37,032 nucleotides of DNA from Bacteroidota bacterium (lineage in GTDB: Bacteria; Bacteroidota; Bacteroidia; Chitinophagales; Chitinophagaceae): assembly GCA_030706735.1 (NCBI GenBank), contig JAUZNZ010000038.1, positions 1 to 37,032 on the forward strand, in the 5' to 3' direction. The position numbers were made by a program, and so were the translations under genes. Shown here one piece after another: positions 14,085 through 19,647 of the stretch (position 1 is the first letter of the stretch; the number at the start of each line of letters is the position of its first letter). The notes below the pieces were generated by a model. That model was not told the origin of the DNA and made no database searches. It was given only the letters and a program-made list of their open reading frames with translations.

Positions 14085-14849
14085 CTATTTGTCCGCCGTA
14101 AGCCCGGAAATCGCATACTCGGCATTCAGCCGGGCGATATTGGTAATGGAGATCTCTTTAGGGCAGACGGCCTCGCAGGCGCCGGTGGCGGTGCAGCTGC
14201 CAAAGCCCTCCTTATCCATCTGGGCGACCATATCCCGGACACGGGACTTGCGCTCAGGGCCGCCCTGCGGCAGCAGGGCCAGGTGACTTACCTTGGCTGA
14301 GACGAAGAGAAGGGCCGAGCTGTTCTTGCAGGCGGCCACGCAGGCGCCGCAGCCGATACAGGTGGCGGCCGCAAATGAGGTATCTGCCTTATCTTTTTCG
14401 ATGGGAATGGCATTCGCATCGACGGGGTTGCCGGTATTGACGGAAATATACCCCCCTGCCTGGATGATGCGGTCGAAGGCACTCCGGTCGACGACCAGGT
14501 CCCGGATCACCGGGAAGGCATTGGCCCGCCAGGGCTCGACCACGATCGTGTCGCCGTTCTTGAAGGCCCGCATATGCAGCTGACAGGTCGTCGTCCCCTG
14601 CCAGGGTCCATGGGGGCGGCCATTGATATACATGGAGCACATGCCGCAGATCCCCTCCCGACAGTCATGGTCGAAGGCGATCGGTTCCTTGCCCTCATGC
14701 ACCAGGCGCTCGTTGAGCACGTCGAACATCTCCAGAAAGGACATTTCCGAGGAGATATCATTGACGGTGTAGGTCTCGAAAGCGCCCCTGTCGTCCTTGT
14801 TCTTCTGCCTCCAGACTTTCAGGGTGAGGTTCATCGTATAGTGTTCCAT
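14085..14849 (-). CDS. sdhB: succinate dehydrogenase iron-sulfur subunit
   Basis: SdhB carries electrons from the flavin subunit to the membrane cytochrome. All cluster ligands are visible in 254 residues. The [2Fe-2S] set is C63, C68, C71 and C89 (CREGICGMC ... TTCQ). The [4Fe-4S]/[3Fe-4S] sets are [11 protein letters not shown] (C164, C167, C170, C174) plus C219, C225 and C229 before Pro. The start is either the first ATG (MEHYT) or the ATG five codons later (MNLTLKVW), where family similarity begins. Only six bases (TATATA) separate the upstream nuclease-like gene's stop from the first ATG. In related genomes sdhB normally follows sdhA directly; here a cassette of about 2 kb intervenes. 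Confidence 0.95.
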
Positions 14850-14855
14850 TATATA

Positions 14856-15299
14856 TTATATATTTTCTATATATATTTTATTCGTAGCCCTAATTAATGA
14901 GCCATTGGTCGCATGAACTATCCTACCCAATCTTACATATTCAGGAAGATTTGAAATCCTTGGAACGTCTCCGCTTCCGACAATTCTTGCATCCAGTTGA
15001 AAGTCTTGAAATTCTTTCCTTAAATAGTCGATTGTGCCTTGAATTTGCCTAACCGCATCAATTAGTCTCGTCCCCTTAAGTTCTATAAATATCGCTCTTT
15101 GAATACCCTTATCATCTACCTTCATCAGATAATCACAACGCCTTTCATTGTCCTTCTGAGGTAAACATTTATCAACTTTAATTTTCGCGATATTAACCTT
15201 TGAGGTATTGACAAGTCTGTAGCATTTGCCATTTTCTTCTGCAACACAAACCTGTCTCTTATCAAAATACTCAAGACAATCTGGTAGTACTAAAGTCAT
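14856..15299 (-). CDS. small PD-(D/E)xK nuclease-like protein, partner of the AAA ATPase
   Basis: This 147-residue protein has what looks like a minimal PD-(D/E)xK nuclease core: CDYLMK with D56, then after a hairpin FIELKG with E73 and K75. A helix carrying IDAVRQIQGTIDYL follows, with glutamines in the position often found in restriction-like and Holliday-resolvase folds. No other domain and no signal peptide is present. It overlaps the ATPase gene by four bases (ATGA) and should be translated with it. The gene is visibly AT-rich (roughly 35-40% GC by eye) against GC-rich neighbours, suggesting horizontal acquisition. I infer a DNA- or RNA-cutting effector controlled by the ATPase; the family is not one I can name. 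Confidence 0.65.
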   Translation of the reverse strand: MTLVLPDCLEYFDKRQVCVAEENGKCYRLVNTSKVNIAKIKVDKCLPQKDNERRCDYLMKVDDKGIQRAIFIELKGTRLIDAVRQIQGTIDYLRKEFQDFQLDARIVGSGDVPRISNLPEYVRLGRIVHATNGSLIRATNKIYIENI

Positions 15300-16474
15300 T
15301 TTTGAGAATATTCTATATTCAAAAGGGTATTAAATCTTTCATTTATTATCCCGGAAATCTCATCAATTCTGTCAGCCTTGATTAGATTTTCGCTGGTATC
15401 GAAAATGTCTTCGCAATATCCGTTTGGCTTGAGAATATAAGCAGAAACTTCTTGAGGATCAAGCCAATACTTTTTATCAACTACATTCTCTACTTTAATA
15501 CTATTTGTTTGGCCCACTTTGTATGCGAACAATGAGTTATTGATAGAGGTCAGAACATAGGGACTGTGAGTTGTCAGCAAAATCGAATGCTTAAAATTAG
15601 CAACATTATCTACCAAGAATTCAATAAGCTTGTTTTGCGCGTCGGGAAACAAATTCTCTTCCGGCTCTTCAATTATAAAGGTTTTCCTCTTCTTTCTGAT
15701 TTCGGTATAGTACTTTAGCGTCAGGATTATCGGTATAGTCGACTGATATCCAGTTGCCGCATTATACATGCTATAAAAAGAACTTTCGTCATTCTTTCTA
15801 ACCAATCCTTTTCCCCTTTCATTTCGGTAAGTAACATCAAGAGGCCCAATATCAGTATCCTTATTGAAAGTTTTCAATATTTGATCGAGGGAACCTAATT
15901 GAACAAAAAGTGAATCAGATATATTTTGAATGCCCCCCTTCCCTATTGAAAAAATAGACTGCAAACCTCTTTCAGCTGGCAGATAAAATGGATTATCCAT
16001 GACTCTACCAACCTCATTTTGATAGAAAGTAGCAGGTATTAATCGAGATCCATAATCGGTAGCAGAGGTCGGGTCCGATGGTAATCTCAGTTTGCTCGCT
16101 TCCGCCAAAAGAATCTTAAAGTCTTCTGATTTAGGTTCCAAGTACAAGTTAATCGGCAAATAATCTAGCTCTCGACTAATTTCTTCAGGAACAACAGCAC
16201 AGGTAGCCTGTATAAGGTAATTCGGACAATCATAAGATATGTACGTTTCTCTATTGACAAACTCGAGTAACCCCCAAGACATCAAACCCCTCATGAAAGA
16301 CTGCTCATACTGATGTTCTTGGACTATGTATGAAAAATAACGACATATTGAAAGGATTTTCGCAACAGTACTTTTACCAGTAGCATTCTTACCAATTAGA
16401 ATATTAAATCTGCCAAATTCAAGTTTAATGCTTTTTATCGGCCCAAAATTCTTTATGACTAATATTTCCTTCAA
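15296..16474 (-). CDS. AAA family ATPase (AAA_21/OLD-like, SMC/ABC-type head)
   Basis: This 392-residue protein has the ABC/SMC-type ATPase fold used by many anti-phage modules. Visible motifs are a starting strand with IKNFGPIKSIKLEF, Walker A GKNATGKST (28-36), FYLPAERGL (about 163-171, a motif recurrent in this group) and a loose signature-like NAATGYQS (238-245). Walker B is TFIIEEPEENLFP (about 265-277) and the switch histidine is in LLTTHSPYVL. The C-terminus (about 310-392) is helical, with no TOPRIM or HNH motif, so this is not a full-length OLD nuclease. Nuclease activity would have to come from the overlapping downstream gene. The AT-rich composition and its position inside sdhCAB suggest a transferred two-gene defence cassette. 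Confidence 0.8.
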   Translation of the reverse strand: MKEILVIKNFGPIKSIKLEFGRFNILIGKNATGKSTVAKILSICRYFSYIVQEHQYEQSFMRGLMSWGLLEFVNRETYISYDCPNYLIQATCAVVPEEISRELDYLPINLYLEPKSEDFKILLAEASKLRLPSDPTSATDYGSRLIPATFYQNEVGRVMDNPFYLPAERGLQSIFSIGKGGIQNISDSLFVQLGSLDQILKTFNKDTDIGPLDVTYRNERGKGLVRKNDESSFYSMYNAATGYQSTIPIILTLKYYTEIRKKRKTFIIEEPEENLFPDAQNKLIEFLVDNVANFKHSILLTTHSPYVLTSINNSLFAYKVGQTNSIKVENVVDKKYWLDPQEVSAYILKPNGYCEDIFDTSENLIKADRIDEISGIINERFNTLLNIEYSQK

Positions 16475-16634
16475 TGAATGCTTTTAAATTATCTAAATTG
16501 AATCTTACCGTCTCTTCAGCCACAACGTACAGGCTATAGTCATCGCTTTTTCTAATTATTTTATTCTTAATGGAACCAATATACCAAGTATATCTACATG
16601 TCCATATTTTCCTCTTGGTTGAGACACACTTTGC
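16425..16634 (-). pseudogene. open reading frame without a start, upstream of and overlapping the ATPase gene
   Basis: A 69-codon frame runs between two stops and overlaps the first 50 bases of the ATPase gene in a different frame. It has no ATG or plausible alternative start, but the translation is protein-like (RYTWYIGSIKNK, DDYSLYVVAEETVRFNLD). It could be the 3' part of a third cassette gene whose 5' part lies one frame away at 16594-16791, or a truncated remnant of the gene that preceded the ATPase in the donor. The function is unknown. Confidence 0.35.
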
Positions 16635-16791
16635 TCATTTTTCTATTCAACGCTGATTCCCCCGGAATCAGCGTTGAATACACTTCATATTCGTCAAGGA
16701 CTCCAAATACAATAACGGTATCGAGAACTTCATCGACATCTCCCAAAATTTCGTTCGGCGCAGAAAGCGCCGGGATATTTGCCCGAATCAT
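16594..16791 (-). CDS. short hypothetical frame between sdhA and the ATPase gene
   Basis: This is a 65-codon ATG frame of acidic and hydrophobic composition (EILGDVDEVLDTVIVFGVLDEYEVY). It is preceded by a purine-rich stretch (GGGGGTGATGT). It runs in the same direction as sdhA and the ATPase gene, and its 3' end overlaps the out-of-frame open stretch at 16425-16634. It contains two inverted repeats, one of them long. Either it is the 5' half of a frameshifted gene, or it is chance coding across a structured intergenic region. I do not recognise it. Confidence 0.25.
   Translation of the reverse strand: MIRANIPALSAPNEILGDVDEVLDTVIVFGVLDEYEVYSTLIPGESALNRKMSKVCLNQEENMDM
16644..16680. repeat. 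long perfect hairpin (17-base arms, 3-base loop)
   Basis: TATTCAACGCTGATTCC and its exact reverse complement flank CCC. No T-run follows on either strand. A second, smaller inverted repeat (CGGCGC, five bases, GCGCCG) lies at about 16756-16772. Together they put strong secondary structure in the transcript between sdhA and the ATPase gene. This could attenuate or process the operon mRNA, or mark a mobile palindromic element. Confidence 0.8.
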
Positions 16792-16922
16792 ACATCACCC
16801 CCATTTCAGGCCCTCTACTAATATACCGCAATCCACTTTCAATCCCGTCTTTCCCCGGCAATTGATACCTCCTCACCAATGTCCGATATTACAACCAAGC
16901 ATTATATTAAATTCATTTACAA

Positions 16923-18950
16923 TCACTTATAACTCCGCTGACTCGGGTGGGCGACCTCGAATTCGAGGTTCTCCTTGTGCAGTTCCCATCCGCCGCCGGG
17001 CGCGCTGCCGGCACTCCCCCCGGGGGCGCCACCACTGCTGCTGCCGCCGTCATTCTTGAATTCCCAGGCCGATACGAAGCAGAAATTGTCGTCGTCCCGC
17101 CGGGCCTCTCCATCCTCGGTCTGCATCTCCTCGCGGAAATGGCCGCCGCAGCTTTCCCGGCGGTTCAGGGCGTCGATGCACATCAGTTCGCCGAGCTCGA
17201 TGAAGTCGGCCACCCGGCCGGCCTTGTCCAGTTCCGTATTCATTTCATGGACGCCGCCGGGAATGCGCACATCCCGCCAGAATTCGGCCTTGAGGGCGCG
17301 GATCTCGGCAATGGCCTCCTTGAGGCCCGCCTCGTTGCGGGCCATCCCGCATTTATCCCACATGATCTTGCCAAGGCGTTTGTGGAAGCTCTCTACCGAC
17401 TGGGTGCCGTTAATATGTTTCAGTTGCACGATCCGGTCGGACACCTCTTTTTCGGCCGCTTCGAAGGCAGGGTGGCTGGTGGGTATCGGAGCGACGCGGA
17501 TCTCGCCGGACAGGTAGTTGCCAAGGGTGTAAGGGATCACGAAGTAGCCGTCGGCCAGGCCCTGCATCAGCGCCGAAGCGCCGAGGCGGTTAGCCCCGTG
17601 GTCGCTGAAATTCGCCTCACCCAGCGCATAGAGGCCGGGCACCGTCGTCATCAGCTCATAGTCCACCCAGAGCCCGCCCATCGTATAGTGGACGGCGGGA
17701 TAGATGCGCATGGGCTGGGTATAGGGATCCTCTCCGGTGATCTTATTGTACATGTCGAAGAGGTTGCCGTATTTCTCTTTGACCACTTCGACGCCATGCC
17801 GGCGGATGTCTTCCGCGCCGGGGTTGTCGATGCCGTGCTTGCGGCATTCCGTCTTACCATAGCGCTCGATCGCGGAGGCATAGTCGAGATACACGGCCTG
17901 CTTCGAGGAACCCACGCCATAGCCTGCGTCGCAGCGTTCCTTGGCGGCCCGGGAGGCCACGTCGCGGGGTACCAGGTTCCCGAAGGCGGGATATCTTCTC
18001 TCCAGGTAGTAGTCGCGCTCGTCCTCGGGAATATCGGAAGGCTTGCGGGTATCGTTTTGTTTCCTGGGGACCCAGATGCGGCCGTCATTGCGTAACGATT
18101 CCGACATCAGGGTAAGCTTGGATTGGTGGTCGCCAGTGACCGGAATACAGGTCGGATGGATCTGGGTGAAGCAGGGGTTGCCGAACCAGGCCCCCTTCTT
18201 ATGCGCCTTCCAGGCAGCGGTCACGTTGCTGCCCATGGCATTGGTGGACAAATAGAACACATTCCCGTATCCGCCGGAACAGATCAGTACCGCATGGCCG
18301 AAGTGGCGTTCCAGTTCCCCGGTGATCAGGTTGCGGGCGATGATCCCGCGCGCCTTGCCATCGATGACGACGACGTCCAACATTTCGTGCCGGGTGTACA
18401 TGTCTACATTCCCAAGGGCCACCTGCCGCTCGAGGGCCTGGTAGGCGCCGATCAGCAATTGCTGGCCGGTCTGGCCGGCGGCATAGAAAGTCCGCTGCAC
18501 CTGAACGCCCCCGAAAGAACGGTTGCTGAGCATGCCGCCGTATTCGCGCGCGAAGGGCACGCCCTGCGCCACGCATTGGTCGATGATATTGGCGCTCACT
18601 TCCGCCAGCCGGTGTACGTTGGCCTCGCGGGACCGATAGTCGCCGCCCTTGATGGTGTCATAGAACAGGCGAAATACGCTGTCCCCGTCATTCTGGTAAT
18701 TCTTTGCCGCATTGATGCCTCCCTGCGCGGCAATGCTATGGGCGCGGCGCGGAGAATCCTGAAAACAGAAAGCCTTTACCTTATAGCCGAGCTCGCCCAA
18801 CGATGCCGCCGCCGAAGCGCCGGCCAGTCCCGTGCCGATGATGATCACCTCCAGGCTGCGCTTGTTGGCGGGGTTTACCAGCTTGACATGTCCCTTGTAT
18901 TCGTTCCATTTCTGTGCGAGCGGGCCTTCAGGAATGTTTGACTTGAGCAT
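16923..18950 (-). CDS. sdhA: succinate dehydrogenase/fumarate reductase flavoprotein subunit
   Basis: SdhA oxidises succinate at a covalently bound FAD. The 675-residue protein shows the dinucleotide fold [15 protein letters not shown] (about 36-50). It has the flavinylation motif [10 protein letters not shown] (H71), the HPTCIPV active-site segment and the capping-domain motif [13 protein letters not shown]. The length fits the long form found in Bacteroidota and epsilonproteobacteria with diheme cytochrome subunits. Near the C-terminus an unusual low-complexity run (about 633-650: [22 protein letters not shown]) separates the body from the conserved-looking tail [16 protein letters not shown]. 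It follows sdhC by 13 bases; sdhB is displaced about 2 kb downstream by an inserted cassette. Confidence 0.96.
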
Positions 18951-18963
18951 ATGATCGGTTCGT

Positions 18964-19647
18964 TTATTGCACCCATTTGAAATACATCGAGACCGGCATC
19001 ATGGCAAATGCGAGCGGCACGATGATCGAGAAGCCGACCCCGATGGCATTCAGCATGTGCAGGTATCGGTTATTGTGTACGCCCAGGGAGCGGAAGGCGC
19101 TTTGAAATCCATGGAGCAGGTGGTAGGCCAGGGAAAGGCAGGCAAGCACGTAGAGGGCCACCACCCAGGGTTCGGTGAATGTCGCCTTCATGAGACTGAA
19201 AAGGTCATGCATCGCCACCCCGTTGATCGTGACCTCGTCCACGTCCCCGAACCGGGAAGGGATCCAGAAATGTTTCCAGTGAATGAGCAGGAAGATCAGG
19301 ATGATGGTGCCCAGCAAACCCATCGAACGGGAGTACCATTTGCTGCCCGAGTTGCCCATCGGGACCTGATAGCCGATCTTTCGTTTTTTCTGGTTCTGAA
19401 AGGTCAATACCAGCCCCTGAATGATGTGGAGAAAAAAGCCGACAAAGAGGCCGACCTCGATGATCCGGATGACGACCGTCGATCCCATGAAATGCGCGGC
19501 CTTGTTGAACATTTCACCGCCATCCATCGCCCAGATACAGGAATTTATGCCGACATGCACGATTAGGAAGCTGATGAGGAACACCCCCGTCAGGCCCATC
19601 ACGAATTTCTTGCCTACGGAGGAAGTGAAGAGTTCAGACCATTTCAT
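18964..19647 (-). CDS. sdhC: succinate dehydrogenase cytochrome b subunit
   Basis: This single 227-residue membrane anchor has five predicted transmembrane segments (about 15-35, 57-83, 107-127, 157-180 and 200-222). Histidines at helix positions ([34 protein letters not shown]) fit ligands for two b hemes. This is the type B diheme form that reduces menaquinone, consistent with the long SdhA and the absence of an sdhD gene. It is the first gene of the operon and has its own upstream promoter. Confidence 0.93.

Follow-up and report, generated by a model that had tools for sequence, protein, structure and literature searches.

A gene pair between sdhA and sdhB: a putative PDC-M29-like anti-phage module with an exchangeable ATPase interior

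What is an AT-rich pair of genes doing inside a core respiratory operon? The question is raised by a stretch of 37,032 nucleotides from a Bacteroidota bacterium of the family Chitinophagaceae (assembly GCA_030706735.1, contig JAUZNZ010000038.1), analysed at its full length and called the window here, in which genes for an ATPase and a small protein lie between the succinate dehydrogenase genes sdhA and sdhB. The favoured answer, given a probability of roughly 0.55, is that they form a two-gene anti-phage module resembling PDC-M29, a candidate pair of PADLOC-DB 2.0.0, which is transcribed with sdh, has an exchangeable, sensor-like segment and is moved by homologous recombination, phage defence being a putative role. 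The sdh address, the turnover of genes in this slot and the exchange of the interior of a PDC-M29-like pair were found in the present analysis.

In the window, the sdhC-sdhA-sdhB order is kept, and the sdhA-sdhB separation, put at about 2 kb in the original prediction, amounts to 2,073 bp. The insert is also far richer in AT than its flanks, as had been noticed: its G+C content is 36.6%, against 61.0% for sdhA, 59.9% for sdhB and 54.9% for the whole window, and none of 351 sliding 2-kb segments (step 100, some overlapping the insert) is as AT-rich. The coordinates bear out the ATPase gene, the 147-residue open reading frame (ORF) and their four-base overlap. Together, the two genes occupy only 1.62 kb of the insert, while a 448-bp leader adjoins sdhA. 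Promoter-like and terminator-like sites were near chance in the scan, with 9 of the former (shuffle mean 6.7, standard deviation 2.2) and 3 of the latter (shuffle mean 5.7, standard deviation 2.6). The two-gene order at this junction recurs across many genomes and is thus beyond chance. The main features are as follows.

14085..14849, minus strand: sdhB, succinate dehydrogenase iron-sulfur subunit (Pfam Fer2_3, 4.9e-27), right border of the slot
14856..15299, minus strand: predicted PD-(D/E)XK-like nuclease of 147 amino acids (aa), from the PDC-M29B match, D/E/K/Q conservation, an AlphaFold2 model and Foldseek
15132-15134, 15081-15083, 15075-15077 and 15045-15047, minus strand: nuclease residues D56, E73, K75 and Q85, respectively
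15296..16474, minus strand: OLD/ABC-type ATPase, 392 aa, TTG start (AAA_15, PDC-M29A, Foldseek matches to Rad50, PtuA, AriA and GajA)
16367..16393, minus strand: Walker A motif GKNATGKST, residues 28-36, with G28, G33, K34 and S35 invariant in a 27-sequence alignment
16001..16327, minus strand: hypervariable, block-exchanged ATPase interior, about residues 50-158, a putative sensor (identity drop, block replacement)
15299..15499, minus strand: ATPase C-terminus, residues 326-392, of a type that assorts together with nuclease type (Mantel r 0.61)
16923..18950, minus strand: sdhA, succinate dehydrogenase flavoprotein (Pfam FAD_binding_2, 1.5e-51), left border of the slot
18964..19647, minus strand: sdhC, membrane subunit (Pfam Sdh_cyt, 6.5e-4, under the curated cut-off; position)

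The larger protein had been read as an AAA_21/OLD-like ATPase with Walker A, Walker B and a switch histidine, and Pfam, motif conservation, sequence matches and fold matches agree on this. In Pfam, AAA_15 (5.5e-24) and AAA_21 (8.7e-14) are the sole families above the cut-offs. The motifs GKNATGKST (Walker A), FIIEEPEE (Walker B) and THSPY are all present, and 27 homologues retain the key residues of these motifs, except that His is replaced by Gln in two. The best sequence matches are an OLD-family enzyme and AriA, and there is a further resemblance to retron effectors; the structure model, with a predicted local distance difference test (pLDDT) score of 86.0, matches Rad50, PtuA, AriA and GajA in Foldseek.

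PD-(D/E)XK nucleases are defined by an aspartate followed by (D/E)xK on core strands and, in many members, by a Gln or Lys borne on a helix. In the small protein, D56 and E73 are invariant among 26 aligned sequences, K75 and Q85 are kept in at least 90%, and G76 is nearly invariant. The AlphaFold2 model is confident (pLDDT 92.9; predicted template modelling score 0.89) and contains strands 57-63, 66-74 and 101-107 and a helix at 79-92; D56 lies just ahead of the first strand, E73 ends the second, K75 follows directly and Q85 sits in the helix. Thus, the four residues are at the strands and helix expected for PD-(D/E)XK, the arrangement originally proposed, and the modelled fold looks nuclease-like. 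Similarity searches gave fainter signals. Pfam returned only a sub-threshold HSDR_N_2 hit (0.024), and Foldseek found nothing at E <= 0.001 either among viral structure predictions or in the PDB, where the best value was 5.1e-3 (BsmI). The best 50 PDB rows, all with weak E-values, comprise 30 nucleases or nuclease complexes (BsmI, MUS81, FokI, PaqCI, EndoMS, Avs4, BamHI and others), which we take to be PD-(D/E)XK enzymes, and 20 rows for CD38. In general, residue conservation and the model support the prediction of a PD-(D/E)XK-like nuclease.

The pairing, for which the original prediction had no name, can be given one because both proteins best match PDC-M29. At profile level, the level at which this comparison was made, the ATPase matches PDC-M29A at 2.4e-29, first of 129 families at E <= 1, and the small protein, encoded adjacent and downstream, matches PDC-M29B at 2.7e-6, first of 3 families; gene order and adjacency are the same as well. 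With a threshold of E <= 0.01, PDC-M29B also matches 22 of the 26 small proteins. No paper on PDC-M29 by name was found in the open-licence literature, preprints being outside this scope. On defence genes in the sdh operon or in hotspots of this kind, the same literature gave only a genome comparison of Flavobacterium columnare.

Better-known systems resemble the pair in some respects and differ in others. PARIS (AriA/AriB) shares an ABC-type ATPase scaffold, but AriB is a DUF4435/Toprim protein, whereas the small protein of the window is PD-(D/E)XK-like and matches no AriB model and no DUF4435 or Toprim family. Septu and the retron Ec78/Eco7 effector PtuAB also combine an ATPase with a small nuclease, and PtuA is among the top fold matches; PtuB, however, is an HNH nuclease, and neither Pfam nor PADLOC finds an HNH or PtuB match in the window pair. 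The OLD family and GajA of Gabija have the ATPase domain in common with it, but unite this domain with a Toprim nuclease in a single chain, and Pfam detects no Toprim in the 392-aa ATPase. Consequently, the pair resembles ATPase-plus-nuclease defence systems yet is not PARIS, Septu or Gabija, since it lacks their nuclease parts. To judge from its sequence, it looks like a variant of such defence-type systems, the interesting part being its address and its reassortment.

How constant is that address? Relatives were sought by protein sequence and not by genomic place. In the family, 10 of 244 genomes carry the nuclease, seven of them at sdhA-sdhB and three after a gene of the aconitase cluster. 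A scan with the ATPase alignment, at one genome per species, kept 78 loci, of which 28 are at sdhA and/or sdhB (L061-L086, L088 and L117; L078 and L088 come from separate contigs of the same assembly). In 23 of 26 measured loci, the end of sdhA and the ATPase start are 0-67 bp apart; on the other side, 21 of 25 measurable loci have a nuclease gene that stops no more than about 25 bp from the estimated sdhB start or runs into it. At L074, sdhB comes only 4.4 kb on, past two other genes; both encode Por_Secre_tail-domain proteins (L074:7719-12031). The sdh-located loci are titled Chitinophagales, Flavobacteriaceae or unclassified Bacteroidetes, with a few titles from other phyla; titles like Limnohabitans, Beijerinckiaceae or Phycisphaerales at sdh are probably binning or naming errors.

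When 103 ATPases are placed on a tree, the 29 sdh-located rows cluster with one outsider, the long-branch, non-sdh L102. A strict sdh clade stays acceptable in the approximately unbiased test (p-AU 0.489) and, if L102 is omitted, the sdh label needs a single change with a support of 93, in a tree of the 29 sdh rows and 29 hand-picked from the 74 others. The trees omit L078, L088, L093 and L149, which are fragments or doubtful, and identical rows were merged. At wider scale, the nuclease profile had matches in 30 of 396 genomes of the order (four at sdh) and in 22 of 395 genomes of the phylum (at sdh in the window's own alone); as the flanks inspected for these matches spanned about 1.5 kb, an sdh gene farther away would be missed. 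Together with the clustering, these counts indicate an sdh clade that is rare yet keeps to its place. Random insertion was rejected, as the address is shared across loci, the weakness of this argument being that L102 joins the sdh group.

The junction is, in addition, a slot that other small genes enter. This was surveyed in the window and 59 hand-picked junctions of the family, one or a few per genus, drawn non-randomly from about 150 of 385 matching genomes (L174 was dropped, its sdhA lying outside the region). Of the 60 junctions, 21 have a sdhA-sdhB gap of more than 400 bp, while none of 58 sdhC-sdhA gaps is that wide, the maximum being 317. Besides the window pair, the wide junctions hold 23S_rRNA_IVP-like genes (13), DUF4760 with GGACT (two, one with an extra gene), a lone GGACT (one), PDDEXK_3 (one), unnamed genes (two) or no ORF of 70 aa (one); Pfam was run on representatives, and phmmer served to assign the rest. 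DUF4760 and GGACT are present at the junction in six congeners of the window, of which one was identified by Pfam and the others by similarity or by eye. On the SdhA tree of the genus, slot states change 7 times among 22 scored rows. Thus, in place of one vertically inherited arrangement in all relatives, the junction differs among them.

The window retains a trace of such turnover in its leader, which contains two further features.

16549..16894, minus strand: decayed GGACT gene in two successive frames with stops (profile bits against shuffles)
16644..16680, no strand assigned: perfect 17-bp inverted repeat with a 3-nt loop, within the GGACT remnant (sequence; core once in the genome)

GGACT denotes a gamma-glutamylcyclotransferase-like family. 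Against its profile, the leader scores 25.4 and 24.0 bits in two successive frames, compared with a maximum of 7.2 among 2000 dinucleotide shuffles, and a 65-aa ORF at 16594-16791 belongs to this decayed gene; three other tenant families gave no match in the leader. An earlier tenant, of the GGACT kind that the six congeners carry, has therefore decayed beside the present pair. The core of the inverted repeat is single copy in the genome.

Some further observations concern the slot and its borders. The commonest tenants surveyed, the four-helix 23S_rRNA_IVP genes, are of two sequence types (L184, L219 and 11 others); such genes are known as passengers in 23S rRNA. A Glyco_tranf_2_4-like gene, below the Pfam cut-off in two of three loci, stands directly before sdhB, alone or after the pair (L049:2940-3830, L077:7646-8548, L083:3290-4171), and in another family of the order a PDDEXK_2 gene occupies the junction (L051:3037-4008). 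In two congeners, sdhB is on a different contig from sdhCA (L009/L046 in G020, L013/L048 in G010), so the operon looks split there. The window SdhA has 675 aa; many relatives align over 657, and the surplus looks Gly/Ser-rich and near the C-terminus.

If the address is stable, what changes within the pair? In the hand-picked comparisons, the loci L065 and L066 have SdhA proteins 99% and nucleases 96% identical, but their ATPase DNA falls to 42-64% over about 360 bp, with 91-99% on either side. The same part of the ATPase dips in L067/L079, L071/L073 and L070/L072, and hence in all four close sdh pairs examined, L070/L072 being the least clean (dip 42-70%, flanks mostly 68-87%, spacer 58%). Mean pairwise identity is correspondingly 22% in the ATPase interior against 66% for residues 1-49. 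Among seven non-sdh pairs, a shallow dip (56-71%) is seen in L113/L126 and L115/L137, and four have no clear dip; L087/L103 drops to 44%, though identity is low as well in its nuclease and in the remainder of its ATPase (43-76% past the first 90 bp). Block exchange was thus not upheld as a trait of the whole family and is claimed for sdh-located pairs only. The interior there behaves, as far as alignments can tell, as an exchangeable, sensor-like segment. By analogy, it recalls the type I restriction specificity gene hsdS, with its conserved ends, exchangeable recognition segment and partner reassortment; nevertheless, no sequence relation is claimed, and the insert contains no methyltransferase.

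The nuclease and the ATPase also reassort. L081 and L083 share about 900 bp of ATPase DNA at 86-94% identity, compared with 64-80% in sdhA, 53-56% in the nuclease and 68-77% in sdhB, an alike block between unlike flanks for which vertical inheritance alone was rejected. Thirteen pairs, which are not independent of each other, were matched at 88-91% SdhA identity; their nucleases are 17-81% identical (68-81 in six, 55 in one, 17-31 in six), the window and G023 giving 90 for SdhA and 55 for the nuclease. Equally related hosts may therefore carry the same or quite different nuclease types, a spread that agrees poorly with vertical inheritance alone but that old allele lineages kept in parallel could produce. 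Across 26 sequences, identity in the interior is uncorrelated with that of the nuclease (r -0.01), while residues 326-392 follow it (r 0.61, Mantel p 0.001). Contact between the C-terminus and the nuclease is a guess, as physical linkage alone could give this value.

Other addresses are known for relatives of the pair, upstream neighbours having been identified by Pfam on representatives and by clustering for the others. Five distinct sequences from a single clade have aconitase upstream, four Flavobacterium loci HSP70, two Cytophagales loci MTHFR and three Sulfurimonas loci a phosphoribosyltransferase gene; a further five relatives have a common unnamed upstream ORF. A label was assigned only where two or more rows share a neighbour, and the six resulting address groups, which cover 48 of 103 rows, fit the tree with five changes, the minimum possible. 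Three of the small groups do not extend beyond one genus or order and can be explained by close descent; the informative groups are sdh and acn. The Pfam families near 31 non-sdh loci are, in the best 25 of 76, mainly housekeeping. L092, L097, L104, L110 and L119, which belong to Thiotrichaceae apart from one Cytophagales record, have a conserved upstream ORF of about 130 aa that adjoins or overlaps the start of the ATPase gene; it had no Pfam match in the two copies run and is perhaps a third component.

How might such a pair work? In the favoured reading, the ATPase would be an ATP-controlled scaffold and sensor, whose hypervariable interior may meet a phage-derived trigger; its C-terminus would restrain the nuclease and, on triggering, free it to cut nucleic acid. 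As most loci leave little promoter room, the pair is probably transcribed, and partly coupled in translation, with the sdhCAB mRNA, a tie to sdh expression suggested by spacing and orientation. Homologous recombination via the conserved flanks and the conserved motifs of the pair itself would swap interior and nuclease between strains, and the pair would stay at the sdhA-sdhB junction because it moves mainly in this way. A doubtful extension makes the locus immune at a fixed address in a stronger sense: a passenger pair behind sdhA or aconitase would be expressed with these genes, gated by the energy state to which they contribute, and would diversify its recognition by swapping interior and nuclease, in the manner of alternative alleles at one locus and not of jumping islands. 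Related ATPase-nuclease systems respond to ATP, which is why the energy state may matter at the sdh and acn addresses.

Much of this evidence bears on other explanations too. A small nuclease joined to an ATPase gene by a 4-bp overlap could be a toxin-antitoxin-like or selfish pair, in which the ATPase restrains a nuclease toxin and wiring into a respiratory operon that is costly to lose retains both, defence being a side effect at most. The related AriA is indeed called 'antitoxin' in the PDB, and the junction accepts small genes of other kinds, for example those for 23S_rRNA_IVP and PDDEXK_2/3 proteins; but a block-swapped interior is more typical of a recognition part, and patchy presence means that loss is evidently easy, which leaves this explanation unlikely. 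More unlikely again is a neutral or weakly useful passenger at a junction that is merely tolerant of insertion, the clade being an old resident with many losses. It would account for address labels that follow the tree and for the 20 of 59 other junctions above 400 bp, filled with other small genes or, in one case, without an ORF, but hardly for catalytic residues retained in distant kin, for block exchange and reassortment, for a decayed tenant next to an intact pair or for a sdhC-sdhA junction without the same tolerance.

The presence of two clades at tricarboxylic acid cycle genes, sdh and acn, and the tight spacing to sdhB suit an accessory of complex II that senses or adjusts succinate dehydrogenase (through sdhB expression, or in response to ATP or iron-sulfur damage) and has no part against phage. 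This is nevertheless very unlikely, given that other relatives follow HSP70, MTHFR and phosphoribosyltransferase genes, that most genomes of the family do without the pair and that fast exchange is unlike a metabolic regulator. Least probable by far is an integrating mobile element with a preference for the sdhA-sdhB site: the same site is used in many hosts and presence is patchy, but neither intact gene of the insert is an integrase or transposase, and exchange tracts stop inside the ATPase and not at the insert ends. Moreover, a search for the nuclease found nothing among 72,556 plasmid records and a single weak match among 50,697 phage records, and 13 viral contigs held distant ATPase kin only, none at sdh.

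Several observations weigh against the preferred reading of a PDC-M29-like anti-phage module. The PDC systems are described as unvalidated candidates obtained by guilt-by-embedding (PMC12988326). The window protein matches PDC-M29B at just 2.7e-6, and its Foldseek results include no hit at E <= 0.001 and many rows for CD38. L069 is without a recognised nuclease, and in L071 and L073 the nuclease match is weak (28-31 bits). Among the best 25 of 76 Pfam families listed for 60 neighbours at the 31 non-sdh loci, no recognised defence family appears, and hence no hint of a classical defence island, PADLOC not having been run on these neighbours. PADLOC on ten slot tenants gave one weak match (LmuB, 8e-4) and nine without any, so that the slot itself is no argument for defence. 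As for the original interpretation, its OLD/ABC-type ATPase, PD-(D/E)XK-like partner and patchy, exchanged insert stand, while its nameless pairing gives way to a named candidate; the location, far from a one-off insertion, is the usual address of an ATPase clade, in a slot open to further small genes.

The search for defence systems usually turns to islands and mobile elements. In the present case, a candidate family holds one address in a core respiratory operon across several taxa, alternating with other small genes, while a sensor-like segment is swapped in place; the sdhA-sdhB spot serves as the fixed address of a changing and probably immune gene pair. If the role in defence is true, searches confined to islands would miss PDC-M29-like pairs at sdh, and new alleles could be found by reading a single sdhA-sdhB junction. 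Alleles such as those of L065 and L066, which differ mainly in the swapped segment, would then make trigger recognition directly testable.

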